64,000 bases of DNA, from contig JAJRSE010000051.1 in the NCBI GenBank assembly GCA_024278955.1, positions 1 through 64,000 of the forward strand, in the 5' to 3' direction. Of this stretch, positions 39,999 through 57,769 are shown in pieces; position 1 is the stretch's first letter; each line of letters begins with the position of its first letter. The notes below the pieces were generated by a model that saw nothing but the letters and a program-made list of their open reading frames with translations, was not told the DNA's origin and searched no databases. Origin of the DNA: Planctomycetota bacterium (lineage in GTDB: Bacteria > Planctomycetota > Planctomycetia > Pirellulales > Lacipirellulaceae). A program made the translations under genes and the position numbers.

Positions 39999-40085
39999 GG
40001 CGAGCGCCTCGTTGGCTGCAATCTTAAAAGGTAAAGGTTCCGGCAATTTTTTGGAACGCGGTTATCCCAGGTCGCTTTGGCTTCG

Positions 40086-41096
40086 CTAAAACAAGTAAAG
40101 TAGTGGGAACAGGAAGATCCATACGAGATCGACAAAGTGCCAATAAAGGCCTACGTTTTCGATCAAGCCTGCGTTGCTGGTCCCTAGCGTTTTGGTCAGC
40201 ATGATCGCGAAAGCAATCAGCCCAATGATCACATGCAAAGCATGAAAACCGGTGAGCAAGAAATAGGTGCTCACCCACATGTTGCCACCTGGAATCATGA
40301 TCGGCAGTTTGAGCCACGGATACAGATCATTGAGTCCCTGGACATGGCCGGTCGCGGCGGGGGTGCTGGTACTTGCGAGGTGGAAATTTGAGCTGAGAGC
40401 TGCCGCATGAGTCGACCTTTTGTGCTGGTCGTGGACACTTGCTCGCGGGTAAATCGCATCGGCCATTTCCAGGAGCAAAATCCGCCCTGCCGGCGATGCC
40501 GGATCTTCACGAATCGCCTTCTCTGCCGGAACGACGTAGTCGAGCGAAATACTGTCGACCAGTGTCAACTGTTCGTTCTGAGCTTCTGTGCGATCGGTCG
40601 TATTCTCTAACTCGGCCTTCAAAACAGCCAGTCGCTTCCGGACTGCCTGGGAGTAGTAGACATCGGCTTTTTCGTAGATTTGGCTATGCGGGTACTGTGG
40701 GTAAAGGCTGTGGGAAAATTTCGCTTTGTACTCGTACATTTTGATGCCGAGAAAGACGACTCCGAGCAGGGTGGTGAGTATCATCCAGCTTTTCGCCAGC
40801 GAGGCATTATTTTTTTTCGCCGCTTCAAGGGCTAAAACGATCGTTACGCTCGAACAAATTAGCACGAAGGTATTCGTCGCACCCCAAATCTCGGCCAAAT
40901 GCACATCATGGGTGCTCGGCCAACTGATGGCTCCAAACCTTAGGACAAGGTATGTGCCGAACAAAGCGGCAAAGAACATGATTTCGGTTGACAGGAACAG
41001 CCACATAAATGTCTTGCCGTTGGAAATCGGCAGCGCAGGCTGGTAGTCGAAATTCGGACCATGGCTAGGGCCGTCGTCTTTAGGGTTATCGCTCAT
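40086..41096 (-). CDS. coxC: Cytochrome c oxidase subunit III with large hydrophilic insert
   Basis: A 336-residue protein, against about 200 for a typical caa3-type subunit III. The conserved parts are present: [20 protein letters not shown] at the start, [20 protein letters not shown], then [15 protein letters not shown] and [20 protein letters not shown] at the end. Between the third and fourth membrane segments sits an insert of about 140 residues (128-268) that is helical, charged and partly Tyr/Gln-rich ([16 protein letters not shown]). The His/Glu motifs of the core are intact, so it should still assemble with subunit I. It is encoded 70 bp after haem O synthase. Confidence 0.92.
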
Positions 41097-41166
41097 AATT
41101 CTTTTATCTACTCTGAATTCTTCTATCTTGGGAAACTCTTAATTCAGCTACAGGGGTTTCTCTCCG

Positions 41167-42072
41167 TCACATCGTGACGATTAACAACATGACCATCCAT
41201 GCCGGTAGGTACAACAGCGTACCTCGAAGCAACAAGCGGGCTGAGGCTTCGTCTCGCATGAGTGCAAAACGGACCGACAGCGCAAACTGAACCACTCCGA
41301 GGGAAAAGGTCCAAACCAAAAAAACCAAGGGGCTTCCGCCGGTTGGCAATACGGCAGGAATTAGACTTACCGGAATTAACACGAGCGCCGTAACAACCGC
41401 TAGCGCACCGCTACGAATGCCTGAAGGATCGACCACCGAAAGCATGCGATGGCCTGCCGCCTCATAATCGCGACGGTATAACCATGCGATGGCCATAAAG
41501 TGTGGGAACTGCCACAAGAACAAGACGGTAGCTAGCGCGTAGGCGGTTAAAGTCAGCGGCTGTCCGGTAGCTGTCCAACCCATTAGCAAGGGGATCGTAC
41601 CTGAGACAGCGCCGACGGTTGTGTTGAGCGGAGTTCGTGTTTTTAGCGGAGTATAAATCAGGGCGTAAACTACCCAGCTCGCTAAACCGAGTGCCGCCGT
41701 CAACAGATTGACTTGCAAAGCGAGCCAACCTAGGCCGAGTACCAAACTCACTCCCGAGAGCAGCAAGGCCTCGAAGCTCGTCACGCGGCCAGTTGGCAAG
41801 GGGCGATCGGCAGTTCGCGGCATAAGCGAGTCGTTCTCGCGTTCCCACCAGCTATTGGCAATACTGGCACTCGCGGCCACTAGTGCGGTACCGAACAAGG
41901 CATGCAGCACGACTGTAAAATTCAGCGAATGAGGCGCCGCAATACATGCCGCCACTCCGGCGACAATTAGCTCGAGCACGACGATTCGAGGCTTGGTCAT
42001 CTCAAAGTAATCGGCAAGTCGTGCTGTCAGGACACTCGCTCGCTGCTCCGTATTTAAGATCGAGCTACTCAT
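41167..42072 (-). CDS. ctaB: Protohaem IX farnesyltransferase (haem O synthase)
   Basis: A 301-residue UbiA-superfamily membrane enzyme that farnesylates haem B to haem O for the oxidase. About nine hydrophobic segments. The prenyl-binding motif is seen as NSWWERENDSLMPRTADRPL, with Glu in place of the first Asp of the usual N-x3-D motif; the second conserved segment is YTPLKTRTPLNTTVGAVSG, followed by FLWQFPHFMAIAWLYRRDYEAAG. The ATG overlaps the ctaA stop by 4 bases, so haem A and haem O synthases are translated together. Confidence 0.94.
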   Translation of the reverse strand: MSSSILNTEQRASVLTARLADYFEMTKPRIVVLELIVAGVAACIAAPHSLNFTVVLHALFGTALVAASASIANSWWERENDSLMPRTADRPLPTGRVTSFEALLLSGVSLVLGLGWLALQVNLLTAALGLASWVVYALIYTPLKTRTPLNTTVGAVSGTIPLLMGWTATGQPLTLTAYALATVLFLWQFPHFMAIAWLYRRDYEAAGHRMLSVVDPSGIRSGALAVVTALVLIPVSLIPAVLPTGGSPLVFLVWTFSLGVVQFALSVRFALMRDEASARLLLRGTLLYLPAWMVMLLIVTM

Positions 42073-43085
42073 AGCAGGACCTCCACTAGTCGCGTCGAGG
42101 TGGGCAAATTCGAGAGACTGCGAGCAGAAAACCCCGTCTGTCGGGCGATTCGCAGCGCGATGGCTAGCGAGATCACTAAAATCAGCGACCCGACCGCCAC
42201 ATGGCTCGTGATAATCGATGCCTGAAAGAAGTCTGCCTCGCGGTTAAGGAATTGTAGTTCGCCTATCCACGCCATCGCCCAGGCAGGCATACCGTACTTC
42301 ACCAACCATGTGCTCATGCCGAGCAATAATTGGATTCCCACCAAGCCGAGCAAGATCAACCCGCCCGCAACCTGAAGCTGGCTACGTAAACAACGAGCGG
42401 CTAGCAGAAGCACGTGAGCAACAATCATCAGGGCGAGGAAAAGGTGGAAGTAGACGGCGATTTGAAAAAGGACCGGTGAAATGGTGCTCAGCATATGAGG
42501 ACTGTGGCGGACAATTGCTCCTACGACCAACTGGGCGTATGCCAAGCAGGTGCAAACCACTGCCAGGCGAAGTACTTTTTTTCCGGAAGGGGAACTTGCC
42601 GCCTTGGGAACACTCTCCCACCATTGCGAAGTAAAGACGACCATCGCTATGCCCATCGCAAAAAACAGAGGACCGGTGCAACCATGCACAAGTGCCAGGG
42701 TGCGTTGATCAAACATCACTCGCATTCCGCCCAGTACGCCTTGCAGGATGACTCCTGCTAAAATGGCAAGGCTAAACATCCGCACCCAGCGACGCGATTC
42801 GCCCAGCCAAGTCAAAACGACAAGCAAGATCGACAACAAGCCTGCGGCCATGCCGAGTAGGCGATGGCCGTGTTCGACAAACTTATCGCCGGTAGAGCTG
42901 AGCCATGGGTAAAAGGGCATCCAATAGCCGTCGGAGGTAATCCAATCGCGAAATGCCATTCCCGCGTCTGTGGTGGTGACCAAACCGCCGACCCAAATCA
43001 ACGGAAACGTCGCGCAGACCAAAAGCCAAGCACATCGATGTGCCCACTTGCTTCGGCGTTGCGTGTTGTTTGGGTCAGAGTTCAT
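42069..43085 (-). CDS. ctaA: Haem A synthase (COX15/CtaA)
   Basis: A 338-residue membrane enzyme that oxidises haem O to haem A. About eight transmembrane segments in two similar halves. Conserved features: WVGGLVTTTDAGMAFRDW, then KFVEHGHRLLGMAAGLL with the first His pair, ALVHGCTGPLFFAMG, QLVVGAIVRH, and a second-half His in ITSHVAVGSLILV. It lacks the N-terminal Cys pair of Bacillus CtaA, so it is closer to the COX15-like type. It is placed between subunit I and ctaB in the operon, which fits haem A supply to this oxidase. Confidence 0.92.
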   Translation of the reverse strand: MNSDPNNTQRRSKWAHRCAWLLVCATFPLIWVGGLVTTTDAGMAFRDWITSDGYWMPFYPWLSSTGDKFVEHGHRLLGMAAGLLSILLVVLTWLGESRRWVRMFSLAILAGVILQGVLGGMRVMFDQRTLALVHGCTGPLFFAMGIAMVVFTSQWWESVPKAASSPSGKKVLRLAVVCTCLAYAQLVVGAIVRHSPHMLSTISPVLFQIAVYFHLFLALMIVAHVLLLAARCLRSQLQVAGGLILLGLVGIQLLLGMSTWLVKYGMPAWAMAWIGELQFLNREADFFQASIITSHVAVGSLILVISLAIALRIARQTGFSARSLSNLPTSTRLVEVLL

Positions 43086-43180: not shown

Positions 43181-44956
43181 TCATTTCGCCTCGGGAGGCG
43201 GCTGGTTTTGTGGGTAAAAGTCTTCTTCTACTTCTGGCGAACCATACTCGTAGGGTCCACGATAAATGATTGGCTGGAAGTCAAAATTGCCGTGTCCTGG
43301 AGGGCTCGGGGCTTGCCATTCTAGGCCATTGGATCGCCAAGGATTTCGGCCCGAACGGGGTCCAAAGAACATGCTTCCGAAAAAGTTGATCACGAAGATT
43401 ATTTGAAGGCCAACCAGTATGAAGGCGGCATAGCTAATAAACTGGTTCATCGGCAACAAGTTTCGGAAGGTTTCGTAATGGTAAGGGTCGGCCAATCGAC
43501 GCGGGAAACCCTGCATGCCTAAGATGTGCATCGGATAGAAGACCAAATTCATCAAGAGGAAGGTAAGGACAAAATGTACCTTCCCCCAGGAGTCGTTCAT
43601 CATCCGGCCAAACATTTTGGGGTACCAAAAGTAGATCGCTCCGAAGACGGCCATCGCTGTACCGGCGAACAACACATAGTGGAAATGTGCCACGATGAAG
43701 TAGGTATCATGAATAAAGATATCGACCGGAGTCGCGGCCATGAAAATGCCGCTCAGCCCGCCTATGATAAACATCGAGATAAACGAGATGGCAAATAGCA
43801 TGGGGGTTGTGTACTGAATGTGTCCACCCCAGAGCGTGCCAAGCCAGTTGAATGTTTTGATCGCACTGGGGAGCGCGATCATCATGGTCGAAACCATGAA
43901 GGTCATCCCTAGCATCGGATTCATGCCCGAGACAAACATATGGTGACCCCAAACGATAAAGCCAAGGCCTGCGATTCCCGAGATCGAGTAGACCATGGGT
44001 TTGTAGCCAAAGAGGGGCTTTCGCGAAAAGCAGCTGAGGATATCTGAGACCATGCCCATCGCAGGCAAAATCATGATGTAAACGGCCGGGTGACTATAAA
44101 ACCAGAACAGATGCTGCCAAAGTAGGGGCTGCCCACCTCCCGAGGCCATCGCCGAGTTGTTGGCCATCGCCCCTTCTGCCAAGAAGAAGCCCGTGCCCAA
44201 GAGACGATCGCTAACTTGCATGAAGCCCGCCGCAGTAAGCACGGGCAAGGCAAACGCTTGTAGGATGGCTGTGATAAACATTGCCCAGATGGTCATCGGC
44301 AGACGAAACATTGTCATGCCGGGGGCGCGCATCTGGATGATGGTCGTCATGTAGTTAATCGAGCCCATCATCGACGCGATTCCGACAAAGGTCACGCCAA
44401 GTAGCCATAGATTCTGCCCGTTGAGACTCCCCGGCGCGGCCTCCGCGATCACCGAAAGCGGAGGGTAGGAGGTCCAGCCGCCTTGGGCAGCACCGCCTTC
44501 CACAAAAAAGCTGGCTCCGATGAGTGCGAACGCAGGCCACATGAACCAGTAGCTAAGCATGTTGAGAACGGGCACCGCCATATCGTCGGCCCCAATCATC
44601 AGGGGGATTAAAAAGTTGCCGAACGCACCGGCAAGAACCGGGATGATCACAAAGAAGATCATCACCGTGGCATGCATGGTGACGAGCATGGTGTAGTTTT
44701 CGGGAGCAATTTGGCCGCCTTCCGCCGCCCCAAGCAGATCTCCGAGAATCGGCATGGGCCTCCAAGGAAACGCCAGTTGCCAACGAATGCCCAGCGCAAG
44801 CATGCCGCCAACGAAGAACCAAATCAGCGTACTAAACAAAAATTGCAGGCCGATTACCTTGTGGTCCAACGAAAAAACGTAGGTACTCAAGAATCCACCG
44901 GAATGCCCATGATCGGCATGGGCGTCGGAATGTGGGTCAGCAGTCACGGTACTCAT
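43181..44956 (-). CDS. coxA: Cytochrome c oxidase subunit I, A2-type haem-copper oxidase
   Basis: The start at 44956 (MSTVTADPHSDAHADHG) removes a 19-residue upstream extension; 591 residues. Twelve or more transmembrane segments. The low-spin haem His is in TMHATVMIFF, the CuB/Tyr motif reads WFYSHPAVYIMILP, WGHHMFVSGMNP holds the CuB His pair, and VAHFHYVLF the haem a3 and haem a ligands. YSHPAVY instead of GHPEVY is the hallmark of A2-type oxidases, where Tyr-Ser replace the D-channel Glu. Proton-pumping terminal oxidase of the inner membrane. The N-terminus is His-rich. Preceded by subunit II. Confidence 0.96.
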   Translation of the reverse strand: MSTVTADPHSDAHADHGHSGGFLSTYVFSLDHKVIGLQFLFSTLIWFFVGGMLALGIRWQLAFPWRPMPILGDLLGAAEGGQIAPENYTMLVTMHATVMIFFVIIPVLAGAFGNFLIPLMIGADDMAVPVLNMLSYWFMWPAFALIGASFFVEGGAAQGGWTSYPPLSVIAEAAPGSLNGQNLWLLGVTFVGIASMMGSINYMTTIIQMRAPGMTMFRLPMTIWAMFITAILQAFALPVLTAAGFMQVSDRLLGTGFFLAEGAMANNSAMASGGGQPLLWQHLFWFYSHPAVYIMILPAMGMVSDILSCFSRKPLFGYKPMVYSISGIAGLGFIVWGHHMFVSGMNPMLGMTFMVSTMMIALPSAIKTFNWLGTLWGGHIQYTTPMLFAISFISMFIIGGLSGIFMAATPVDIFIHDTYFIVAHFHYVLFAGTAMAVFGAIYFWYPKMFGRMMNDSWGKVHFVLTFLLMNLVFYPMHILGMQGFPRRLADPYHYETFRNLLPMNQFISYAAFILVGLQIIFVINFFGSMFFGPRSGRNPWRSNGLEWQAPSPPGHGNFDFQPIIYRGPYEYGSPEVEEDFYPQNQPPPEAK

Positions 44957-45030
44957 AAATATCTCACTTTTTTCAAACAACCAACGATGGAACCGGAAAC
45001 ACTCCGTTATCACGCATCATCTGTTGTTCA

Positions 45031-45816
45031 TCATTCATCAGTGTCTAAGGTATCGTCTTGCACGACGCGCATCGTATTCTCATCGAGTCGCATTTCTTCT
45101 AATTTCGCTTCGTATTCGTCGGCCGAAAGGAAGAAGACTCGGCCCTTCATTTTGTAATGTCCCCAGCCGCAAAGCTCGGCACAGACGATGTCGTACCCGC
45201 CCTTTTCTGTTGCCTTAAACCAGATGCTCTGATCCATTCCCGGAACGATGTCCTGCTTGAGGCGTAGATTGGGAAGGAAAAAGCTGTGCAACACATCGGC
45301 ACTGGTAATTTTCAAAAGCACTTCTTCGTCGACAGGCAAATAGAGTTTGCCATCGGTGCGGACGAAGTCGTCTGCGGTGTACAGTTCGCCATCGGGCCCT
45401 GGGTAGCGGAAGTCCCAATTGAACTGTCGTCCGGTCACTTCGACCAAGGGGCGAATATCTGGCGGCTGCATTTTGGCAGTTGCCCAGGCTTCCATTTGGT
45501 AAATGGCGATAAACAACATTGTGATTGCGGGGATAATGGTCCACACAATCTCCAGGACATGGCTGCCGTGGGAATACTTTACCGGTTGATCGTTGGAGCC
45601 CTGCTCGTACTTCCAGGAAAAGTAAAATAAAACTAACTGCGTGACCACAAAGACTGCGCCCGACAGGTACAGAATGAACATGAACAAGCTGTCGATCACG
45701 TGTCCATGCTCAGAGACATCGCGCGGCAAGCCCATATTGAAATAGGGCGCTACAATAAAAGTCGCGACCCCACCAATAGGGACTAACAGGAACAGGACAC
45801 TCCAGTAGCGATTCAC
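45031..45816 (-). CDS. coxB: Cytochrome c oxidase subunit II (CuA)
   Basis: A 261-residue protein with a GTG start. Two N-terminal transmembrane segments (VLFLLVPIGGVATFIVA and LFMFILYLSGAVFVVTQLVLF), then an outer cupredoxin domain. VTGRQFNWDFRYPG is the electron-entry aromatic patch, SADVLHSFFLPNLRLKQDIVPG carries the first CuA His, and CAELCGWGHYKMKG the CxxxCxxxHxxM ligands. There is no fused cytochrome c domain, unlike classical caa3 subunit II; the electron donor must be one of the separate multihaem cytochromes encoded upstream. Signal for export is the first membrane segment. Confidence 0.96.
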   Translation of the reverse strand: MNRYWSVLFLLVPIGGVATFIVAPYFNMGLPRDVSEHGHVIDSLFMFILYLSGAVFVVTQLVLFYFSWKYEQGSNDQPVKYSHGSHVLEIVWTIIPAITMLFIAIYQMEAWATAKMQPPDIRPLVEVTGRQFNWDFRYPGPDGELYTADDFVRTDGKLYLPVDEEVLLKITSADVLHSFFLPNLRLKQDIVPGMDQSIWFKATEKGGYDIVCAELCGWGHYKMKGRVFFLSADEYEAKLEEMRLDENTMRVVQDDTLDTDE

Positions 45817-45896: not shown

Positions 45897-47231
45897 CTAA
45901 TTCACAATACCTTCGGTGTTTGCAGGCAAAGCCTTCAAAGGCCTGCTTGGCGACTCGTACGGCAACGACAATACGTAGTCAACAATGTTCCAAATTTCTG
46001 CTTCGCTAATGGTTCCCTTCCCACCTGGCGCCGCGGACCCTGTCGCTGGCATCGGGGTGCCTGGGATACCTGCGGAGATTCGCCAGAAGATGTCAAGGCG
46101 TCGACGCCCGCCGCGGTAGATTCCTTGGCGTAGATTTCGAGGAATCGCGTTGCGTAGCGGGTAAATCATGGCCGCCACTTCGTCGCGGCTGGCAGCAAAC
46201 TCTTGACTATCTTCGGTCGGCTCGCCCTTGTGGCTTTCGGCGACATCAGACAAAAACTTCTTGTGTGCCTTGCTCCAGTTATCGAAATCGTCTTGCTGGC
46301 CATCGCCGAGGGCGGTGGGGCCATGGCATTTAATACAGTTGGCACGTGTGCCGTAGAACAGCTCGCGACCTTTGTCTACCGAGGCAGCGATTTCTTCATC
46401 GCTTCGCTCTTCGGCTGGAATTTGATCTTCCTCAGGCAGGATGATTTTTTCTGAAGCAGCGTCCCAACCTTCGACAATCTCAGCCAGCAAGTCGGCCACG
46501 ACTTCCTGTTGCTCAGCGTCTTCGGCCGGGTTAAACGGGATGCGTCTCAGCACGGGTTCTCCGTCACCGTCTAACAGGGGCTCTCCGTCCTCATCTTCGG
46601 CCTCTTCCTCTCCAAGTTCGTCAAAAACAAAGTTGGTTAGCGCCGTTTCCATCTGGCCGCGAATGCTCAAGTATTTCACATACTCGACCAACGACTCAAC
46701 TTCCGAGGAAGGCAACAACGAGAAAGACGGCATTGCGGTACCAGGGACACCATTGACCAGCACACGGTGAAGATCTTCGTCGGTTGGACGATCGGCGTTG
46801 TAGGTCGACTTGAATTTGTAAACCCCAGGACGGTAATCACGTGGATAAGGATTCAAAAACCGAGCTGTTGGCCCGCGACCGTCGCCCGTGATTCCATGGC
46901 AATGAACGCAATGCTTGCGATACAGTCCGTGGTTGTATCCCTTTTCGTCGCTCCAAGCCGAGCCGGCTGCCATCTGTAGTTGGATTGCATTGAGCCCTGT
47001 CTCGGGCAAAGCAAAGGGCTCGTCTGGGGTACCAAACAGCGCGCCGAGTACGTCGGCAATCTCTTGCTGATACTCTTGGGCAGTGGGGGTTTCTTCGGAC
47101 ACCATCTTCACCATGTCGAGCCGAAACTCCGGCGGTCCCGACGAGCTACAACCGACGGTTACCAGCGGCGCGACGAGGCACGCGAGAAGATAGAAGCTAT
47201 TAAGTTTTTGTTTCATCGTATTTTGGTTCAT
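45897..47231 (-). CDS. Dihaem cytochrome c lipoprotein
   Basis: The start at 47231 (MNQNTMKQKLNSFYLL) is chosen because a signal peptide with lipobox VTVGCSS follows; 444 residues. Two CxxCH sites, CVHCHG (Cys108) and CIKCHG (Cys299), each in a class I cytochrome c-like domain with candidate Met ligands in GTAMPSFSLL and GTPMPATGS. Between the domains lies an acidic linker (GEEEAEDEDGEPLLDGDGEP). Its place directly ahead of subunit II makes it the likely membrane-attached electron donor to CuA, standing in for the missing fused haem domain; this is inference. Confidence 0.9.
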   Translation of the reverse strand: MNQNTMKQKLNSFYLLACLVAPLVTVGCSSSGPPEFRLDMVKMVSEETPTAQEYQQEIADVLGALFGTPDEPFALPETGLNAIQLQMAAGSAWSDEKGYNHGLYRKHCVHCHGITGDGRGPTARFLNPYPRDYRPGVYKFKSTYNADRPTDEDLHRVLVNGVPGTAMPSFSLLPSSEVESLVEYVKYLSIRGQMETALTNFVFDELGEEEAEDEDGEPLLDGDGEPVLRRIPFNPAEDAEQQEVVADLLAEIVEGWDAASEKIILPEEDQIPAEERSDEEIAASVDKGRELFYGTRANCIKCHGPTALGDGQQDDFDNWSKAHKKFLSDVAESHKGEPTEDSQEFAASRDEVAAMIYPLRNAIPRNLRQGIYRGGRRRLDIFWRISAGIPGTPMPATGSAAPGGKGTISEAEIWNIVDYVLSLPYESPSRPLKALPANTEGIVN

Positions 47232-47325
47232 CGTACGACCAGCAATGTCTTTTTTAGGAATTTCAAAGCGATTGAGCAGGATACGGTTTCTGATTTTTCT
47301 TGGCCGGTATTTTACTGAGCTCGAC

Positions 47326-48270
47326 CTAGCCACGGAATGCGTTGGTGGGCACGGTCAGCTCAAACTCTTTCACTTCATCTTCTGCCAGATTTATCTTGAA
47401 GCGGCCTTTTTTCGACCACTTCATCTCTTTACCAGCCTCAGTATTTAACACTAGTGCTCCCTTTGGTCCAGTACCACTCTCGTGCCAAACCTGCACTTCT
47501 AAAATTTCTCCGGCTGGCACATTAGCAATTTCAAACGATCCGTCTGGAGCTGTTATTGCGTAATAGCCATTGGCTCGCGGCAAAAGGTACGAAGCCATCC
47601 AAGGGTGGATACTACAAACCGCAAGCACAGGCATGGCTTCTTCTTTTTGCGGCGTGTAGTCGACCGACTCGTTCGCAGGAATGGTTTGATTGAAACTGTT
47701 GTTCCCCGAGATGTTTGTATTGTGCCCTACAGGGTCGCTGTTTTTTAGCTCAACCGTCTGCCCGATTGTCATCGGAAGTACATGGGTAAGAAAAACACAG
47801 GCTTTTTGGTCAAACAAAACTTTTTCGGTACTAGGCTGTGCCGATTCGTGTACTCGTGAGACCTTGCGAATGTAGATCGCTACGTTTGCAATTCCCTTGT
47901 TGCCAGAATCGACGAGCAGGGTTTCCTGCAAAGGAGGCTTTCCCCCGTCGGTGCAGGTCGCCTGATCTTTATTGACGTTGTAGGGTTGCATTGCCGGCGG
48001 CTCGCCATCGTAGACGAATCGCCCTTTGATGGTTGCCCAGCCCGTGGCCGTAGCAACAGCCGACTCGCTGGAACCTTCTTCAGCAGCACCTGTCGCACTG
48101 GCTTCGCCGGCAAATACGCTGCGAATTTTTGCCACCGACGTAGCGCTCGCAACCGGGCCTAACTCCTCGCCACGCTGGCAACCTATGGTTACGACCAGGG
48201 CAGCAAGCAGGGTTGCCTGAAAAAGGTGGCTGTAAGGCTGGATTTTTTTCGTCACGCTTTTGTCAAACAT
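47326..48270 (-). CDS. Lipoprotein with cupredoxin-like domain (copy 1)
   Basis: A 314-residue protein with lipobox VVTIGCQ. After an Ala/Ser/Glu linker comes a domain beginning TIKGRFVYDGEPP, then CVFLTHVLPMTIGQTVELKNSDPVGHNTNISG and CSIHPWMASYLL. His in HNTN with Cys-x2-His-x2-Met (CSIHPWM) gives the H-C-H-M ligand set of type 1 copper sites. The last part (GSFEIANVPAGEILEVQVWHE) is like carboxypeptidase-regulatory beta domains. It is probably a periplasmic copper/electron-transfer protein acting between the bc complex and the oxidase. It is a paralogue of the next gene upstream. Confidence 0.85.
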   Translation of the reverse strand: MFDKSVTKKIQPYSHLFQATLLAALVVTIGCQRGEELGPVASATSVAKIRSVFAGEASATGAAEEGSSESAVATATGWATIKGRFVYDGEPPAMQPYNVNKDQATCTDGGKPPLQETLLVDSGNKGIANVAIYIRKVSRVHESAQPSTEKVLFDQKACVFLTHVLPMTIGQTVELKNSDPVGHNTNISGNNSFNQTIPANESVDYTPQKEEAMPVLAVCSIHPWMASYLLPRANGYYAITAPDGSFEIANVPAGEILEVQVWHESGTGPKGALVLNTEAGKEMKWSKKGRFKINLAEDEVKEFELTVPTNAFRG

Positions 48271-48349: not shown

Positions 48350-49162
48350 TTACTTTCCCAAGACCGAGGGGCTGACCTTGATGTCGCCCAGGTCGAGGGT
48401 GTCTCCGGCCGGGATCGTTAGTTTTGCGCGGCCTTTTCTGCTCGTTTTCCCGCCACTAAAAGTCATGTTCTTCATATTGCCTTTGGATTCGTGCCAGAAG
48501 ATGAATTCATGCTTCCCCGCCGGGAGGTTGGCAATCTCAAAACTTCCGTCAGCCGCAGTGACGGTCATGTAAGGATTGTCGCGTATCAGCACATAAGCCT
48601 TCATCCAAGGGTGGATATTGCAAGCGGCTGGCGAAGGGTACGATTCTCGCTTTTCAAAAGTCTTGGCGAGGGGCGAATCGTTGGGAATAATCTGGTTAAA
48701 ACCAGGATTCTTTGTCGGAGTTAGGTTCGTATTGTGTGCCACCGGATCGGAGTTGCTAATCTCGAGCGACTGCCCGACTCTTAGCACCAAAGCATGAGGC
48801 TCAAAGCGGCATCCTTTGTTGTCGAGCAACACGGGTTCTGTATCAACCTTTTCTAGGTCAGGGTGAATCTCAACGGTCTTGCTGCTTTTGAGATAGAGGT
48901 ACACAAACACGTTCGCTAGCGCTCCCTCTTCGCCAACGATAATGGCTTCATCCATCAGATTGTGCTTACCACAAAACTCGGGGTCTTTGTTGGCGTTCAC
49001 TGCCGCGGCTTCGCCTAGGTCGCCCTCGACAACAAACCGGCCTTTGAGGGTTCCCCAGTCGGCAGCGTTTGCCGCGGAGAACAGCATCGCGACGATCGCC
49101 CATGCCGCGCAAAATTTTGCCGTTGCTTGAACACTTTGTGTTGTCAATTTAGGAATGCTCAT
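48350..49162 (-). CDS. Exported cupredoxin-like protein (copy 2)
   Basis: A 270-residue protein with a conventional signal peptide (AWAIVAMLFSAANAA) rather than a lipobox. The core matches copy 1: LKGRFVVEGDLG, VLRVGQSLEISNSDPVAHNTNLTP and ACNIHPWMKAYVLIRD, then GSFEIANLPAGKHEFIFWHE. The putative copper ligands (His in HNTN, Cys-x2-His-x2-Met) are conserved. Two extra Cys (FCGKHN and KGCRFEPH) may form a disulfide. With one anchored and one soluble copy, the pair may act as docked and mobile carriers, or one may feed copper for assembly; sequence alone does not decide. Confidence 0.85.
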   Translation of the reverse strand: MSIPKLTTQSVQATAKFCAAWAIVAMLFSAANAADWGTLKGRFVVEGDLGEAAAVNANKDPEFCGKHNLMDEAIIVGEEGALANVFVYLYLKSSKTVEIHPDLEKVDTEPVLLDNKGCRFEPHALVLRVGQSLEISNSDPVAHNTNLTPTKNPGFNQIIPNDSPLAKTFEKRESYPSPAACNIHPWMKAYVLIRDNPYMTVTAADGSFEIANLPAGKHEFIFWHESKGNMKNMTFSGGKTSRKGRAKLTIPAGDTLDLGDIKVSPSVLGK

Positions 49163-49219: not shown

Positions 49220-52200
49220 TCAGTTCGTTTCATTGTTGGTCGAAGCATCTGATGCTTCTTCCGCAGGCTCGGCGTCGTCCTCGTTTGAGGCACTAGCCGC
49301 TACTGTGGCTTCGACGAGCGAACTGATCGACGTCTGCCGCTTGGTGTAGACGTCGAAATTCATCAACAGATCGACTAGTCCGTCAAGCTGCTCAACACTC
49401 GTTCCGTGGAACAAGTCCTGAGAAATCCCAGCTTCAAACGGAATGTTAACCGGCATTCCCGTGTAAGGCAAAATCCTCTTTGGATTTGCAACCCACTCGC
49501 GGAGGTATTCTGGCCGGAGCCTGCGATAAACCTCAGCCAAATTCGGGCCAAAAGTTACCGGATCGCCTTGCGGCTGAAAGTCGCCTACCGCGTGACATTT
49601 CACGCAGTAGTTGTTATTCACGACGATGCCTATCGCATCGGAGAGTCGTTCTGGCTGATCGGCTTCTAGGCTTGCAAGGTAGCTGGCCCTTTGTCGTGTC
49701 TTGTACTGGTAAGGATACTCGGCGCCGGAAATTGCGGCAAAATAGTCGACCAGCTTGGCTGCATCCTCGCTCGACATGTGGAAATTAGGCATCCGCATGA
49801 TGACTGCCGGGCGGATCTCGGTTGGATCCATCAAGAAATCGTGCAGCCAGTCGGTCTGCACCTTCTTGCCTTCGTCCATCAACGGCGGAGGCAACCAAGA
49901 CCAAGCTTCGGAGCCTTTGACCTGTGGATTGGTTTCCTTTGCTTTGGCAATTGCTCGCGGATACAAGTAGCGAGCCAGAGTTCCCCCCCAGGCTGGGTGG
50001 GCGGTGCCATCTGCTGGACCGTAGCCCTCGGGATTGGCTGGAATCATCAAATCTTGGATTCCACGTAGCCAAGGATTCCCCTCAACCAAACCGTTATTCC
50101 AAAGCGTGAACAGGTAGTAGGGTTCCGACTCGTCGTCGTCGGGTTCGATAGGCAAACCGTCTTCGTCAACGCGTTGGGCAAGGCCCGTTTCTTCACTCAG
50201 CACAGGCATGCCATGCAGAGTGGCGAGCATCTGGCCACGGGAATTCTTTTTCAACGAATCGGTGACGGCTTTGTCCGAGAAGTGCTTGGCTAGGAAGGGG
50301 AAGTCGACTACTTCTGACTGGGTATCAAAAGTACCTTCCTCAAAAGCAAATTTCCATTGCTCCATGCTGAGCGTGTGGCAACCTGCACAGTTGAACTTCT
50401 CGAGCACCTGACGACCTTCGACAATTGCTTCCTGGCGAGGATCTGGGTGGTAGATGAGTTTGTCGGTAGGCGGCTCATTCACAAGGCCCAAGACAAACGT
50501 AATGATCGCTTCTCGTTGGTCGTCGGTCAGAGGGAACTTCGGCATCCGCAGACGCTCGTTGTATCCCTTGTTCTTCATCGTCTTGTAGTCAAAGCTACGT
50601 GGCATACGAAGTTTTTGCCAGATAAACCCATCGCGACCGTGACTATTGAGCGACTGAATGAAGTAGCTCGTATCAGGATCGAAATTGGCCGGGTCGAGGT
50701 GGCCGTGCCCAGCATGCTCGTCATGTCCGTCGTGGGAAGCATGTTGGTCGTGGGAAGCAGTGTCCGGGTTGCCGGGACCTTCGAGGAACTTATGGATGTT
50801 CTCGAACGCCAGCTTCGACGTTTCTTTGCGTCCCCATTCGGCGAGTGTTGTGCCAATGGGCTTGGCCCCTTCAAAGCCAGGGATATCGTGGCAGCCGAAG
50901 CAACCATGCTTGCTGATCGAGCGTCGGGCAACGTACTCTTGAAGTTTGGCGACGTGATTCTCTTCGGTCATGCCCAGCAAGATTTTCTCGTCCGATTTCA
51001 ACCTCGGTTCCATGTGGTCAGGGAAACCCTTTTGGATGAATTCCTTGGCTCTTGCAGAAGGAATCGCATCGCTAGTGATCCACTCTTGGGCTAAGTCTTC
51101 CAAGGCAGATTGTTCGGCTTCTGACCAATTTTGATCGACTGCTGCGGGTTTCCAATCGCTTGCTCCGCCCATGAGGTACGCAGCAATGTCTGCCGCCGGA
51201 TCGGTGATCTTGCCGGTTGGCTTGCCTGCCGAGTCTGTCTCGGCAAGGGGATCAAGAAACAGGTCGGGCATCTTGGTACGTGTATGGTAACGCTGTGGTT
51301 GTTTGATCCAGGAGTAGAGCCAGAGGGCGCCTTTTTCTGATCCAAGCTTTGCGCCTAGACGCGACAAGTCGGGACCTTGATCGGCAGCTACGCTCTCAAA
51401 GCTCTCGTGCGAGTGGCAGGCTAGGCAGCCACGCGATTCAAACAACCACTGGCCGCGTTCTGCCGAAGGGGCTTCGGTTACTTCCGCGGGTGGAGTGAGG
51501 TACTGGAAATCGTTGCTATTGGCCAGCAGGAACTCTGTCATCGCACGAATTTCGACAGGCTCGTAGCGTTCTGACTCTGCGAGTTCGTCCGCATCTTCTG
51601 GATCTTGGAGATGCTCGTGCAACCCAAAGAACTGAGGCATCCGGGTAGAAGGTCGGAAATCTGAAGGCTGCGAGATCCACGCATGGAGCCAATCGAAATC
51701 AACTTTAGAACTCAAGTAACGCAGGCTCGGACCGGCTTTTCGGTACTGCCCCGGGGCATCGACGTCTTTCAAGCCGTCGGCAAGTTTGTGCGTTGCGGCG
51801 GTAAGCGTTGCCTCGCCGTTTGACTTCTGGGTGCTGTCCTTTTTGAGGGCCACCATGAGCTGACGACGTGCCGCCGAATTATCGGGAGACGAAACTAGAG
51901 ACGATGCCCAAGCTTGCTGCTCTTCGGTTAGACCCTTGTCTAGTAAAATTTGCGAGGCGACTTCGCTCCAATTCGGCTCAAGACGTACGTCGGGGCCAAT
52001 GCGTCGGTCAGGTCCGTCGAAGCCGTTTACTTCGTGACAGCCAAAGCATCCAAACTTCTCGACCAGCGACCACCCCTCGACCAGTTTTGGAGCCGGAGGA
52101 TCGGGGAAACGCTCGCTTGCCACCAGCGAACCTTTGTCGTGGTGACACTTCAAGCAATTGCTCTCAACAAAACGGCTAGGCTTCATCGGGAAAATCCAAT

Positions 52201-53767
52201 GATGGTTGTCGAACCAACCTAACTCTTCGGACCACTTTTGTTGCTGCTTTGAATTGTTTGGCGTATGTGACGTCCATGGGAAAGACGTACCGCTTCCTTG
52301 ACCATCGTGACAGACGGTGCAGCCCATCTCTTTTTCAACGTGCGGACTCGAATCGGTTAGGTACAGATCGAGCCGCGGGTGGGAAGTAAACGGATGGTCT
52401 AGCCCTCGCCGAATCGTCAAGCTGAGTGGCTCTCCCCAGACGGCGGATTTCAACAAGTAGTTCGTCACGACCGCAGGTTCGTGGGCAGGCTGGTCTCCGG
52501 CTAGCTCAATGACATCGCCTGCTTCGAGTCCGGCCTTCGAGGCAAGGCTCTCTGGCAAAACATAGAGCACGGTCACGTCGAAATAGTTGACGATACCCTG
52601 GTCGGCTAATTTCAAACCATAGACATCGCGTACCGCATCTCCTGGCGATATTTCCGGGGCAAGCTCAGGTGGTTCCTCGGGAGTAGCTAGCGAGATAAGC
52701 CGCTCTCGTTCGCTTTCTGGCAAGGTGGGATAAGCCGGATCGCTCGCCGTGCCTGACGCTGTTTGAGAAATTGCTTGGTGGCAGGACTTGCAGCGATCGA
52801 ATCGTGCAACCTGCGAGAAGTTGTAGTTGATCGTCAACTCAGGCAGCCAAATCTGATTGATACGTACGTTGCCATCGTAAAGTGCATCAAGAACCGGCAA
52901 GCGAGTAATCCACTCCCCAAGGTTCGAGGTATTCTTCGCAACTTGTTCTTCGAGTCGAGTCAACTCGGTGGTCATGGCGCCACGCCGTTTTTCCAACTTG
53001 ACTTGCTCGGCGGCAACTTGCTTCACAATTTTTTCTAAACGCGAACGGTAAGTCTGAGCGAGGACGATCTTTTCGGTGAGCGCAGCGGTCGAGGTTGTGT
53101 AATCATCAATCCGTGATTGCACTTCGTTGCGAATCGCGGCACTGGCGCCCTCTCCAACACGCAAACCAAGCTCGCTGACGGCAGCGGTCCGGTCGGCAGC
53201 TACCGATTTGCGTTGGGCTACGACATTTTTCTCTAGTCGCACCGCGTCAACAACGAACTCCTGTAGCTCGCCGAAGAGACGACTTCGAGCAGCAAGGGCC
53301 TTTTCGTCTGCAAGCCGCGAAGCCTTTGCAAGCTCCGCATTCTCTTCGTCGCCAGTCTTCTCGAGCGATTGATAGGCTTCGTTTGCTGCCGCGGCTGTCT
53401 CGTCAAGCTTGGTTACTGCCGCCTCCAGCGCATCAAAACTGGCGGTTGTGCCATGGCGTTCGGCATCGGCAGTGGCAAGCGACTGGAACTCTTCGATCAA
53501 CTCGGGAGCAACGGGCTGTGCCTCGGCGCGGCGAATCTGATCATCAAAGGCATCCATCTTGCTTGCAAACTGGAACGCCAAAGAGTCGTGTTGCGACTGC
53601 GTCATCCAGGCTTCTTTTTTGCGATCGGTCAATTGCCATCGCTTCCACTCGCGATTATGGTCCTTCGCCAGGAGCCAGAGTGTAGCAATCGTCATCACAA
53701 GCGCAGAGCAGGCAAAGACGACATGCATCACCTTTTGGTTACGCCAAGTTTGTTCGGTTGCGGGCAT
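49220..53767 (-). CDS. Giant octahaem cytochrome c with coiled coil and PDZ-like domain
   Basis: A 1515-residue membrane-anchored protein. Order: one transmembrane helix (about 14-34), a long Ala/Glu-rich coiled coil (about 60-290), the first haem site CKSCH (Cys326), a PDZ-like domain (about 395-465; ESLASKAGLEAGDVIELAG), then CTVCH (483), CLKCH (538), CFGCH (574), CLACH (781), CFGCH (956), CAGCH (1127) and CVKCH (1388), and an acidic low-complexity tail. A His-rich stretch lies at about 1000. It is encoded directly after the cytochrome b halves, where cytochrome c1 would be expected, so it probably takes electrons from the Rieske protein and passes them toward the oxidase. Confidence 0.93.
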   Translation of the reverse strand: MPATEQTWRNQKVMHVVFACSALVMTIATLWLLAKDHNREWKRWQLTDRKKEAWMTQSQHDSLAFQFASKMDAFDDQIRRAEAQPVAPELIEEFQSLATADAERHGTTASFDALEAAVTKLDETAAAANEAYQSLEKTGDEENAELAKASRLADEKALAARSRLFGELQEFVVDAVRLEKNVVAQRKSVAADRTAAVSELGLRVGEGASAAIRNEVQSRIDDYTTSTAALTEKIVLAQTYRSRLEKIVKQVAAEQVKLEKRRGAMTTELTRLEEQVAKNTSNLGEWITRLPVLDALYDGNVRINQIWLPELTINYNFSQVARFDRCKSCHQAISQTASGTASDPAYPTLPESERERLISLATPEEPPELAPEISPGDAVRDVYGLKLADQGIVNYFDVTVLYVLPESLASKAGLEAGDVIELAGDQPAHEPAVVTNYLLKSAVWGEPLSLTIRRGLDHPFTSHPRLDLYLTDSSPHVEKEMGCTVCHDGQGSGTSFPWTSHTPNNSKQQQKWSEELGWFDNHHWIFPMKPSRFVESNCLKCHHDKGSLVASERFPDPPAPKLVEGWSLVEKFGCFGCHEVNGFDGPDRRIGPDVRLEPNWSEVASQILLDKGLTEEQQAWASSLVSSPDNSAARRQLMVALKKDSTQKSNGEATLTAATHKLADGLKDVDAPGQYRKAGPSLRYLSSKVDFDWLHAWISQPSDFRPSTRMPQFFGLHEHLQDPEDADELAESERYEPVEIRAMTEFLLANSNDFQYLTPPAEVTEAPSAERGQWLFESRGCLACHSHESFESVAADQGPDLSRLGAKLGSEKGALWLYSWIKQPQRYHTRTKMPDLFLDPLAETDSAGKPTGKITDPAADIAAYLMGGASDWKPAAVDQNWSEAEQSALEDLAQEWITSDAIPSARAKEFIQKGFPDHMEPRLKSDEKILLGMTEENHVAKLQEYVARRSISKHGCFGCHDIPGFEGAKPIGTTLAEWGRKETSKLAFENIHKFLEGPGNPDTASHDQHASHDGHDEHAGHGHLDPANFDPDTSYFIQSLNSHGRDGFIWQKLRMPRSFDYKTMKNKGYNERLRMPKFPLTDDQREAIITFVLGLVNEPPTDKLIYHPDPRQEAIVEGRQVLEKFNCAGCHTLSMEQWKFAFEEGTFDTQSEVVDFPFLAKHFSDKAVTDSLKKNSRGQMLATLHGMPVLSEETGLAQRVDEDGLPIEPDDDESEPYYLFTLWNNGLVEGNPWLRGIQDLMIPANPEGYGPADGTAHPAWGGTLARYLYPRAIAKAKETNPQVKGSEAWSWLPPPLMDEGKKVQTDWLHDFLMDPTEIRPAVIMRMPNFHMSSEDAAKLVDYFAAISGAEYPYQYKTRQRASYLASLEADQPERLSDAIGIVVNNNYCVKCHAVGDFQPQGDPVTFGPNLAEVYRRLRPEYLREWVANPKRILPYTGMPVNIPFEAGISQDLFHGTSVEQLDGLVDLLMNFDVYTKRQTSISSLVEATVAASASNEDDAEPAEEASDASTNNETN

Positions 53768-53854: not shown

Positions 53855-55231
53855 CTAAAAGTTCAAAAAGTATTCAGGAATAGTAATCAGGTACTTCAGG
53901 TTAAAGACCCAGCGAAGCACCATTTTGATCGGCAGCGAGGCCATGAACAGCAGCAGGTTGGTCATCACCATAAAGCGGACGAAACCCATTCGCTGGTAGA
54001 AACTGCGGAACACGGTCAGCGCCATAATCGGCGGCAAGACAATGAAATAGCCCAGCACCAAGACGATGCCTAGCCACTCGCGGTAAATGATGTAGCCAAT
54101 CTGTGTCAAGGTACTACTCCCGGCTGCAGCTACCGGCGGGCTCATGCCCAGCAGGTCTTTCCACCAGAGATCCGAGAGATAGACATTGATTAAGGCTTCG
54201 ACTTTATGCGCATCCCAATGTTCGTAGGGGCCAAAAAAGTTCCAGTTCGGGCCGCGCAACAGGGTGCCAAGCACAATCAGTGTGATCCACATTTCCAGAA
54301 AGCCAAACTGAAAAACCGTATAGCTAAATGGTCGTTCCTTGATCGTGTAGTAGCCGTTGCCCTTCTTGTTGAAGTCTAAGTAGGGGATTGCCATCAAGCC
54401 GGCGACAATCATGCTTGGAAGCACCACGCCCGCCATCCACGGATCGTAATAGACGAGCATCTCTTGGAGACCCAAGAAGTACCAAGGGGCTTTGGAGGGG
54501 TTCGGGGTCTTTGCCTGATTGGCAGCCTCTTCGAGCGGTGCCGGCAAGGCAATTGCCCAAAAGATGAGGAATGCCATCAGCGCGATCATGCAGATCAACT
54601 CGATGTAAACCAAGTCGGGCCAGACCAGCACTTTTTCGTCGTCCAGCTTCTCCAGCGGAGGCTCGCCACGGGCGATACGATCGTCGTTTTCAACTGCTCG
54701 AGCGGTGCCTAGCCAAGTGAAGAAGGCTAGCAGAAATACGAGCATCACAATGGGCACATTGTCTGGCTTGGCAACGATTTCATAAAAATCGCTGTCGGTC
54801 ATCGAGAGGCCTAAAAACAGCCACATCAGATTCCAGATGGTCCAGGCAACCACTGGCTTCACGAAGAAACTTCGGAAAAGGTATAGCAACACCAACATCG
54901 CTGTGGTGCCCAAGCTGTAGACAACCGGACCAGTGCCTTGGTTGATTGCGTCTCGCAGCCCCTCAGGCAACGCGAGCATCGACACCCAACCACTTCCGGC
55001 AATAGCGCCGAGGATCGCAAACATGGTCGCTAGCAAAAGCCAACCTGCTGAGTTGGTAATAGCGACCTTACCGAGACCAGGCACAGGCAAGCTGAACCAA
55101 GTTTTTAGCTGTCCCGATCGCCACAAATAGAGGGCGGCCAAGCCATTCATCAGCGCCAGCGCAAGGTAGTAGGGCCCCAAAAAGGAGGCAACCATGCTAA
55201 AAAATTGGCCGTCTGTCAGTCCGTGGGTCAT
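53855..55231 (-). CDS. Cytochrome b C-terminal half (subunit IV-like), extended
   Basis: A 458-residue membrane protein with roughly ten hydrophobic segments. The quinol-site region reads NPSKAPWYFLGLQEMLVYYDPWMAG, the counterpart of the PEWY loop with Ala-Pro replacing Pro-Glu, as in some menaquinol-type complexes. FNKKGNGYYTIKERPF and the following helices match cytochrome b C-terminal domains. An N-terminal part of about 210 residues with several extra helices has no equivalent in cyanobacterial subunit IV (about 160 residues). It is encoded separately from the haem-binding half, as in b6f-type complexes. It lies 108 bp after that gene. Confidence 0.88.
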   Translation of the reverse strand: MTHGLTDGQFFSMVASFLGPYYLALALMNGLAALYLWRSGQLKTWFSLPVPGLGKVAITNSAGWLLLATMFAILGAIAGSGWVSMLALPEGLRDAINQGTGPVVYSLGTTAMLVLLYLFRSFFVKPVVAWTIWNLMWLFLGLSMTDSDFYEIVAKPDNVPIVMLVFLLAFFTWLGTARAVENDDRIARGEPPLEKLDDEKVLVWPDLVYIELICMIALMAFLIFWAIALPAPLEEAANQAKTPNPSKAPWYFLGLQEMLVYYDPWMAGVVLPSMIVAGLMAIPYLDFNKKGNGYYTIKERPFSYTVFQFGFLEMWITLIVLGTLLRGPNWNFFGPYEHWDAHKVEALINVYLSDLWWKDLLGMSPPVAAAGSSTLTQIGYIIYREWLGIVLVLGYFIVLPPIMALTVFRSFYQRMGFVRFMVMTNLLLFMASLPIKMVLRWVFNLKYLITIPEYFLNF

Positions 55232-55339: not shown

Positions 55340-56116
55340 CTACAGCGGTCCGCTGATGCCGCCGTCCTTTCTTACCCGCCAAAAGTGGATCGCTAACAAT
55401 AGCGCCACTCCTAACGGAATTGCGATGCAATGCAAAATATAAAATCGATTCAATGTCTCTTCACCTACCTCGCGCGCACCTAAGAGCGCAAAGCGGGCAT
55501 CCGAGGCGTTGGTAATCATGTCGACGCCGCCAAGAGTCAGCAGCTGCTGACCTGGGCCTTCATGGCCAATCACGGGAGTGGCGCGAGCCATATTTGAACC
55601 CACGGTAATTGCCCAAACGGCCAATTGATCCCATGGTAACAAGTAGCCGGTAAACGAAAGCAGCAAGGTCAGCAGAAGCAAAAACACTCCCACGACCCAG
55701 TTGAATTCTCGTGGCGGCTTGTAGCTACCGGTAAGAAACACGCGGTACATATGCAGCCAGACGGTGATTACCATCGCATGGGCACCCCAGCGGTGGATCT
55801 CGCGCAGTATTCCTAAGGAATGGACGTCTCGGAGCATCTGAATATCGGTATAGGCCCATTCAACCGTTGGTCGATAGTAAAACATCAACAGCACGCCGGT
55901 TACGGTTTCAACCAAAAACAGAAAAAAGGTAACCCCACCCATGCACCAAGTGTAGGAAAGGGCAATGCCTTGCTTCTTGACCGAGACCGGATGCAGATGC
56001 AAGAAAAAGTTGGTCAACACGACCACAATACGATTACGGCGATCGACCGGCATAGGATGACGGAAGATACTTTTCCAAATCTGTGATTCGCGGATTATGT
56101 CGCCTAAGCCTGGCAT
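55340..56116 (-). CDS. Cytochrome b N-terminal half (b6-like)
   Basis: A 258-residue membrane protein carrying the two b haems. Four core helices with the bis-His pairs: [26 protein letters not shown] holds the first His of each pair, and [26 protein letters not shown] the second. The Qo-site region [20 protein letters not shown] is well conserved. An amphipathic N-terminal stretch ([17 protein letters not shown]) precedes helix A, as in menaquinol bc complexes of Gram-positive bacteria. It receives electrons from quinol together with the Rieske protein encoded 63 bp upstream. Confidence 0.94.
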
Positions 56117-56179: not shown

Positions 56180-57199
56180 CTAAACGGGGATAAAGCAAGA
56201 CGGGTTGTCCCACTCGCCCTTTTCTTCAAAGAACAACTGATTTTTGTCGATCTCGATCTGCCCATCTTCGGCGACGCGAATGGCGTAGCGTTCTAGCGGG
56301 CGAGGTGCAGGACCTTCGAAATTGACTCCATCCTTGTAAAAGCCACTGCCATGGCAGGGGCACTTGAATTTCTGTTCTGCTTCGAGCCAGTTGGGGGTAC
56401 ATCCTAAATGAGTACAGACCGATCTTAAAGCGTAAATTTGCTGCTGACCGTTGTACTCGCCATTGGAAATCCAAACCGCAAACTGGGCCTTGTACTTCGT
56501 GTTGACCTGCCCTGGAGGAAACTCGTCAGGCAAACCAACTTTGAATTTACTTGGCGGTTCGCGAAGCACGTTCGGGAACATAAACTTCACGGTGGCTACC
56601 GTCCAAAGGAGTAGCGCCGCACCTAGGAAAGTAAAACCCTCGGCAAGGAACCCACGCCGAGTTTCTTCGCCTGCTCCCTTCTTGCTTGAGTTTTTAGGAG
56701 CTGGCGGAGCAATTGCGTAAGCAGGCTTCTGGGGCATCGGTGGCACAACGATTTTCGGCTTTTCCTTCTTAGGATTTGCCTTCTCTTTCGCTGCGGCTTC
56801 GGCCTTGCTCATCGGCCCAGCCTTCGAGGGCTTGCGGGCAGCAGCGAGAATGCTTGCCGTATCGCGAGGCTCGGCCGGCTTGCTGGGAGTAGCCGCCTTG
56901 GCTGCGGCAGGTTTCTTCGCCGCGGGCTTTTTCTCGGCTGCCTTTTTCGGAGCGGCCTTCTCGGCACCCGACTTTTCTCCTCGGGCCATCGCCAACATTT
57001 CAGCGACGCTTGGTCGCCCCGCTTCGCCAGGCTTGGGAACCGACTTCGAAGGCGCAGAACCCTGAGACACCTTGGCAGGTGCTTCTGCTTCGCTCGAATC
57101 GGTTTTGTTCGGTTGGTCGTCTGCCTCACCACCACCGCTATCAGCCTTACGGGCTGCGGCGATCATCTCGGCGACAGACATTTTTTTCTTATCGGCCAT
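56180..57199 (-). CDS. Rieske iron-sulfur protein with long repetitive N-terminal extension
   Basis: The start at 57199 (MADKKKMSVAEMIAAARK) is preferred to 57220; 339 residues, twice the usual length. The 2Fe-2S motifs are complete: CTHLGC (262-267) and CPCHGSGF (280-287), with ligands Cys262, His264, Cys280 and His283 and the disulfide pair Cys267/Cys282. A transmembrane helix (184-206) follows RRGFLAEG, a possible Tat-type signal. The first 180 residues are Ala/Lys/Pro-rich and should be cytoplasmic; a short motif recurs there three times (SVAEMIAAARK, SVAEMLAMARG, TASILAAARK). First gene of the respiratory operon; a CRP-like site lies about 200 bp upstream. Confidence 0.94.
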   Translation of the reverse strand: MADKKKMSVAEMIAAARKADSGGGEADDQPNKTDSSEAEAPAKVSQGSAPSKSVPKPGEAGRPSVAEMLAMARGEKSGAEKAAPKKAAEKKPAAKKPAAAKAATPSKPAEPRDTASILAAARKPSKAGPMSKAEAAAKEKANPKKEKPKIVVPPMPQKPAYAIAPPAPKNSSKKGAGEETRRGFLAEGFTFLGAALLLWTVATVKFMFPNVLREPPSKFKVGLPDEFPPGQVNTKYKAQFAVWISNGEYNGQQQIYALRSVCTHLGCTPNWLEAEQKFKCPCHGSGFYKDGVNFEGPAPRPLERYAIRVAEDGQIEIDKNQLFFEEKGEWDNPSCFIPV

Positions 57200-57769
57200 G
57201 TCGGCTTTTCCACTCCGCAAGCGCCGGCTCCTAGAACAGGAAGCTAGCGAAACTCACGCCCACAGGATGCTGCGATAACCATATGTCGCAATCCTGACTA
57301 CCAGGTAAAAAACAGTCTGCTAGGCCACGCAACTTACGATGCAAGGCGTTTGCTAGAACTGACTTCCAACGCCACGTTGGCTTTGCTATCAAATTCTTCA
57401 TTAGTTTGTGACAATTTTCACAAACTATCTAGCACAGGTTTAAGGATAACGCCTCTAATTGTCAACCGCCCTTTCTCTCAGATCGCCAACTCCTGCCCCT
57501 CCAGAAGGAGTTTTGCCAATTTCATTGTCCCTCCAATCGAAATATTCGTCCTCGGCCTCGAATTCCAAAAAGTCCAACTGGAAAAAGTCCAACTGGGTGG
57601 CATCTCTCTGGCAATACTTTCAACCCGCCCCTGGCCGGAGCCTTCCTCAGCGACAACAAACCTCGTAAAATCGCGAATTCGCGCCCAAGTGCTTGCTCAA
57701 GGCGAACGAATCAAGGTAGTCCAACCGCTCAATTCCTGGCTGGATCGCCATCGCAAACGGAGATTTTTA
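57200..57769. other. Divergent regulatory spacer between the respiratory operon and purD
   Basis: About 570 bp with no supported gene. The 140-codon upstream extension of ORF 57350 lacks family similarity, and the real purD start has its own ribosome-binding site. It contains the CRP/FNR-type dyad at 57402-57427. Nothing else distinctive was seen apart from a direct repeat of AAAAAGTCCAACTGG-like words at 57568-57598. Confidence 0.6.
57402..57427. promoter_or_regulatory. Perfect CRP/FNR-type dyad
   Basis: TAGTTTGTGA, six bases CAATTT, TCACAAACTA: ten-base perfect arms containing TGTGA-N6-TCACA, the core of the CRP site consensus. It lies 203 bp upstream of the Rieske start and 343 bp upstream of purD, in the spacer that must hold the promoter of the respiratory operon. 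A CRP/FNR-family regulator responding to cAMP or redox state is the natural candidate (inference). Confidence 0.65.

Follow-up and report, generated by a model that had tools for sequence, protein, structure and literature searches.

What is an eight-haem cytochrome c doing in the operon position where cytochrome c1 is expected, and why does it carry, besides its haems, a long helical domain and a PDZ domain? The question is raised by a gene within a 64,000-nucleotide stretch of a Planctomycetota bacterium genome (assembly GCA_024278955.1, contig JAJRSE010000051.1, positions 1 to 64,000; referred to here as the window). The gene (49220..53767) is intact and consists of a single ATG-initiated frame running from 53767 to 49220 on the minus strand, as do all features of the window described below. 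The original prediction of one polypeptide of 1,515 residues had given no strand, and its coordinates were correct. All eight of the CxxCH sites it had listed are present (aa 326, 483, 538, 574, 781, 956, 1127, and 1388), far above the number expected from composition-shuffled sequences (mean, 0.006; maximum, 1). The proposed membrane anchor was also recovered as one hydrophobic, N-terminal, uncleaved segment at aa 16 to 34 (53666..53722), which is the only transmembrane segment of the protein. Pfam searches returned matches to cytochrome c, CBB3, FixO-like, and cytochrome c7 profiles.

The haem ligands were examined in an alignment of 33 proteins spanning the phylum and ranging from 938 to 1,745 aa. 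All eight CxxCH motifs were kept in every one of them, collinear with those of the anammox relatives, and the only other residues of their kinds that were invariant throughout were exactly three His (463, 476, and 501) and five Met (710, 833, 1075, 1326, and 1438). In chain order, the three His lie around haems 1 to 3, and the five Met come after haems 4 to 8. As three His and five Met add up to the number of haems, we predict bis-His ligation for three of the haems and His/Met ligation for the other five. The former would comprise haem 1 (CKSCH, aa 326 to 330; 52778..52792) and a segment with the three His and haem motifs 2 (aa 483) and 3 (aa 538 to 542) (52142..52381); the latter, recognized by Pfam and by conservation, would form five cytochrome c units with haems at aa 574, 781, 956, 1127, and 1388 (49452..52048). 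A relationship to the HAO/OTR-type octahaem cytochromes was considered and rejected, given that no such family appeared among the Pfam, NCBIfam, and PDB matches and that an invariant Met accompanies five of the eight haems. "Octahaem" thus denotes here a predicted tri-haem bis-His module followed by five His/Met units. A Foldseek search with the C-terminal 1,051 residues gave no whole-length match and only weak matches to SoxX cytochromes.

The octahaem gene is the fourth of a compact 13-gene operon on a single strand, with intergenic gaps of −8 to 108 bp. Its setting within a Rieske/cytochrome b operon, with aa3 oxidase genes downstream, agrees with the earlier assignment to the cytochrome c1 slot. 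It is preceded by genes for a Rieske protein (56180..57220; probable start ATG at 57199), a cytochrome b6-type subunit (55340..56116) with an invariant Cys58 at the haem cn position and the likewise invariant haem ligands His 108, 122, 229, and 244, and an enlarged subunit IV-type protein of 458 aa (53855..55231), the Rieske and subunit IV-type proteins being assigned by profile and conservation. It is followed by genes for two cupredoxin-like proteins (48350..49162 and 47326..48270), a dihaem cytochrome c supported by profile and operon conservation (45897..47333), coxB with intact CuA ligands and no haem c (45031..45816), coxA (43181..45013), and a tail of ctaA, ctaB, coxC, and coxD (39525..43085), the coxA and tail genes being assigned by operon conservation. 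The whole 13-gene order was found in about 20 Pirellulales loci, and contigs too short to hold it match over the part that they cover.

Several of the neighbors have features of their own. The Rieske protein has an N-terminal extension (56650 to 57200) of ~185 Ala/Lys/Pro-rich residues before its anchor, expected on the cytoplasmic side, in which an (S/T/D)xxxx(L/I)AxAR-type motif occurs three times (compare SVAEM(L/I)AxAR-type repeats). One to five copies occur in the Rieske proteins of Pirellulales and its sister order, and the motif was absent from the other phylum members checked, bar one doubtful match; a search of the genome for a second copy of the extension found none. The subunit IV-type protein has about nine hydrophobic segments in a simple scan, compared to three helices in b6f, and its 458 aa compare with 277 aa in the anammox operon. 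Neither cupredoxin-like protein had a copper-family match in a Pfam search, and both have invariant residues (H143 and C181-x2-H184-x2-M187 in the first, H183 and C219-x2-H222-x2-M225 in the second) in what we take to be the amicyanin spacing. Both are possible electron carriers to CuA.

A scan of GTDB contigs identified 48 loci, of which the informatively named ones are planctomycetes, mostly Pirellulales. The survey proposed with the original prediction, asking whether the octahaem-PDZ architecture recurs beside cytochrome b, was borne out across Pirellulales, and about 85 of the 118 sampled Pirellulales genomes contain the octahaem protein (best E value of <1e-20), the remaining genomes having only weak PDZ-type matches. 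Several Pirellulales genomes lacking the protein also lack a PF13631 cytochrome b and contain an NrfD protein. Replacement by alternative complex III in a strict sense is nevertheless not clean, as NrfD is also encoded in the window's genome (G000:C36:81553-82527) and in those of several other carriers. Two further cytochrome b genes are found in the window's genome (G000:C91:68198-68695 and G000:C124:116566-117069). Together with the NrfD gene, they point to parallel quinol-oxidizing complexes and a branched respiratory chain, in which the octahaem complex would be one of several branches. In one further locus (L097, 8238-13268), the octahaem and Rieske genes are adjacent, and no cytochrome b was detected within the 20-kb stretch.

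Between the anchor and haem 1, the protein is largely helical. A conserved signature, R39-x-W41-x3-Q45, follows the anchor, and an AlphaFold2 model of aa 1 to 640 places helices at aa 5 to 37 (the anchor), 40 to 82, 88 to 104, 112 to 137, 144 to 205, 210 to 251, and 253 to 279, with pLDDT values mostly above 90 across the helical region (aa 40 to 279; 52931..53650). The coiled coil claimed earlier stands insofar as a long helical domain of ~240 residues is present; a significant heptad period of ~3.5 residues was found in the helices at aa 112 to 137 and 210 to 251 only. Hence, "helical domain with partial coiled-coil character" is the safer wording. A long segment between R39-x-W41/Q45 and D324-R325, just before haem 1, was seen in 31 of the 33 phylum-wide proteins; the two short ones are both from one Pirellulales family (f3). 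The helical domain is mostly lost from these two (L081, 7723-11733; L082, 1552-4959), which keep all eight haems and can be regarded as natural deletions; L082 lacks the PDZ domain as well.

The PDZ domain (aa ~375 to 455; 52403..52645) is inserted between haems 1 and 2. The HMM search suggested as a check was below the Pfam cut-off for the window protein by itself (PDZ_6, E = 0.0012, aa 400 to 453). When the haem 1-haem 2 region was aligned for 43 proteins, the window protein included, matches at an E value of <0.01 were obtained in 42 for PDZ_6, 38 for PDZ_2, and 28 for PDZ, with the PDZ_6 matches of all 42 falling at the same place. A profile of the region matched the PDZ domains of DegP, DegQ, RseP, and HtrA2 in the PDB (best E = 1.9e-13). 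The AlphaFold2 model has a pLDDT of ~86 to 94 across aa 371 to 450, and a Foldseek search with the predicted domain retrieved solved PDZ domains with a probability of 1.00 and a target TM score of ~0.75 to 0.79, at an E value of only 3e-3. What had been called PDZ-like is, by the family-wide profiles and the predicted structure, a true PDZ fold.

In a tree built from the haem part, the PDZ-containing proteins formed one group that includes a single PDZ-lacking member (L082), and two changes suffice to account for the presence and absence of the domain, compared to a mean of 11 after shuffling; the two f3 rows are long-branched, so that their exact place in the tree is unsure. The other f3 protein, L081, has the domain (PDZ_6, E = 9.8e-10) despite its short helical segment, and among the sampled octahaem proteins of Pirellulales that cover the region, only one lacks it. 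The domain was thus apparently gained once within Pirellulales and lost at least once. It is absent from five operons of the sister order with the same Rieske-b-octahaem-oxidase order, and therefore, it needs an explanation specific to Pirellulales. The helical domain, in contrast, is also present in anammox and other operons of the phylum where the flanking 12 to 20 kb yielded no oxidase genes, and its explanation accordingly belongs within the Rieske/cytochrome b complex.

Considering gene integrity, homology, haem-ligand conservation, the operon, the PDZ fold, and its single gain, we think it probable that the octahaem protein is a subunit replacing cytochrome f or c1 and acting as a wire from quinol to oxidase, with the helices serving as a clamp and the PDZ domain in docking or assembly. 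In the electron path that we infer, quinol would be oxidized at the Qo site, and the Rieske center would hand electrons to the octahaem subunit, tethered to the membrane by its N-terminal anchor. Electrons would then pass from the tri-haem bis-His module near the membrane to the five tandem His/Met units and onward to CuA of the aa3 oxidase, carried by the dihaem cytochrome encoded in the same operon, by the two amicyanin-like copper proteins, or by both. By analogy with Kustd1485 of Kuenenia stuttgartiensis, the ~240-residue helical domain may wrap or clamp the Rieske/cytochrome b dimer on the positive side. The PDZ domain, on the same side, would most likely bind a protein C-terminus or loop, thereby docking or assembling a putative partner. 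Docking or assembly is the default role for a PDZ domain, and the nearly invariant YG-hydrophobic loop that precedes the first strand of the domain is consistent with a carboxylate-binding loop having been retained.

A serious rival to the docking reading, which we nevertheless regard as doubtful, is that the domain has lost ligand binding and is a structural filler packed on the helical domain or on the module formed by haems 1 to 3. Residues within the domain are less conserved than the haem modules, several Pirellulaceae have long extra insertions inside it, and one f3 species does without it. However, both the YG loop and an AGL..GDVI core are nearly invariant in the 43-protein alignment, and the retention of the domain in almost all sampled Pirellulales proteins argues in the same direction. 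To a similarly doubtful degree, the domain may be a handle for assembly or quality control that, in the manner of the DegP and RseP PDZ domains, recognizes exposed C-termini on subunits not yet assembled or brings in a periplasmic protease. Its closest sequence relatives in the PDB are the PDZ domains of DegP, DegQ, and site-2 proteases, and its site beside haems 1 to 3 would suit the sensing of haem loading or of Rieske docking; yet bacterial PDZ domains are mostly protease borne, so that DegP-type similarity is expected regardless, and a protease domain is absent from both the protein and the operon.

Returning to the docking reading, we propose only tentatively that the PDZ domain in the haem chain provides a specific site for docking the Rieske C-terminus, the tail of subunit IV, or an external redox partner. 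The Rieske C-terminus (...SCFIPV) looks like a hydrophobic PDZ ligand, as do its counterparts in nearly all species with the PDZ domain. However, Rieske tails are equally hydrophobic in species without PDZ, leaving this candidate unsupported, and no ligand was singled out among the operon C-termini. If such a site exists, docking would be coupled to electron transfer at haems 1 to 3, and PDZ domains would have a role in a respiratory enzyme, beyond proteolysis and magnetosomes.

In the original prediction, the helices and the PDZ domain were a scaffold holding together a supercomplex of the Rieske/cytochrome b complex and the aa3 oxidase, a reading that we now consider unlikely. Oxidase genes do come after the octahaem gene in nearly all Pirellulales loci where the flank allows, and a bridge to the oxidase could be formed by the five His/Met units. 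However, neither of the two modules follows the distribution of the oxidase, as the helical domain is kept where no oxidase genes were detected nearby and the PDZ domain is missing from the five sister-order operons that include the oxidase, which weakens the scaffold reading; the two modules simply provide no evidence for an oxidase supercomplex. Finally, the fusion of two genes by a frameshift or an assembly error can be ruled out, since the same architecture occurs in one frame across independent genomes and MAGs, with full-length, single-frame relatives in the 48 GTDB contigs, barring contig-end cuts and one relative (L069) split into two frames.

These results bear on the respiration of aerobic planctomycetes, which is poorly described. 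The octahaem type of Rieske/cytochrome b complex, previously modelled in anammox bacteria, occurs widely across the phylum; in Pirellulales and its sister order, one operon encodes this complex, copper proteins, and an aa3 oxidase, and in one order a protein-docking domain has been added to the likely electron path. Further, the presence and absence of the PDZ and helical domains provide a natural comparison for testing module function.

Among known systems, the closest is Kustd1480-1485 of Kuenenia stuttgartiensis, a Rieske/cytochrome b complex with the octahaem subunit Kustd1485, whose helical domain was modelled as wrapping or clamping the Rieske/cytochrome b dimer (PMC12954380). Common to both are a b6-type cytochrome b, a separate subunit IV, a Rieske protein, and an octahaem subunit replacing cytochrome f, with a membrane anchor and long helices. 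The anammox form differs in its length (~950 aa), in having no PDZ domain, and in an operon that contains an NAD(P) oxidoreductase in place of the copper proteins, dihaem cytochrome c, and aa3 oxidase. Hydrazine synthase alpha was found in four sampled genomes with matches of the 950-aa class (G088, G248, G206, and G345). The protein from the first of these (L088, 948 aa) has all eight haems, the three His, the five Met, and the anchor signature found here, and its operon encodes a Rieske protein, b6, a small ORF, an NAD(P) oxidoreductase with Fe-S domains, subunit IV, and the octahaem protein, which in gene content and order agrees with the Kustd1480-1485 type. The oxidoreductase is absent from the window operon. 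As we take it to be a feature of the anammox complex rather than one defining the family, we assign the window protein to the Kustd1485-type cytochrome family and claim no anammox complex type; it is encoded with a Rieske protein, a b6-type cytochrome b, and subunit IV, and its anchor and helices precede haem 1.

Cytochromes c1 and f, which are mono-haem proteins with a C-terminal anchor, share the operon slot and presumably the role of Rieske acceptor. In contrast, the octahaem protein has eight haems and an N-terminal anchor, and the family searches found no c1 or f profile match in it. Alternative complex III (ActABCDEF) is likewise a multihaem enzyme that oxidizes quinol and can supply aa3 oxidases with electrons; its membrane subunits are of the NrfD type, and it lacks both a Rieske protein and cytochrome b, whereas the octahaem operon encodes both of the latter and the NrfD protein is encoded elsewhere in the genome.

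With regard to PDZ domains in respiratory complexes, no relevant paper was found in a literature search that covered sources outside subscription access, and none of the searched papers describes the octahaem-PDZ architecture. The one clear precedent for a fusion of PDZ and c-type haem among the searched papers is provided by the magnetosome proteins MamP and MamE, which combine PDZ and magnetochrome c-haem domains, MamP dimerizing via its PDZ domains (PMC3971196). Here, too, PDZ and c-type haem are on one membrane-attached polypeptide, but magnetochrome is a separate small fold with a role in iron oxidation and biomineralization rather than in quinol oxidation, and the likeness is one without demonstrated homology. 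The octahaem-plus-helices architecture is thus already known from anammox bacteria, and what is new relative to the anammox form is the PDZ domain, the greater chain length, and an aerobic operon that includes copper proteins and an oxidase.
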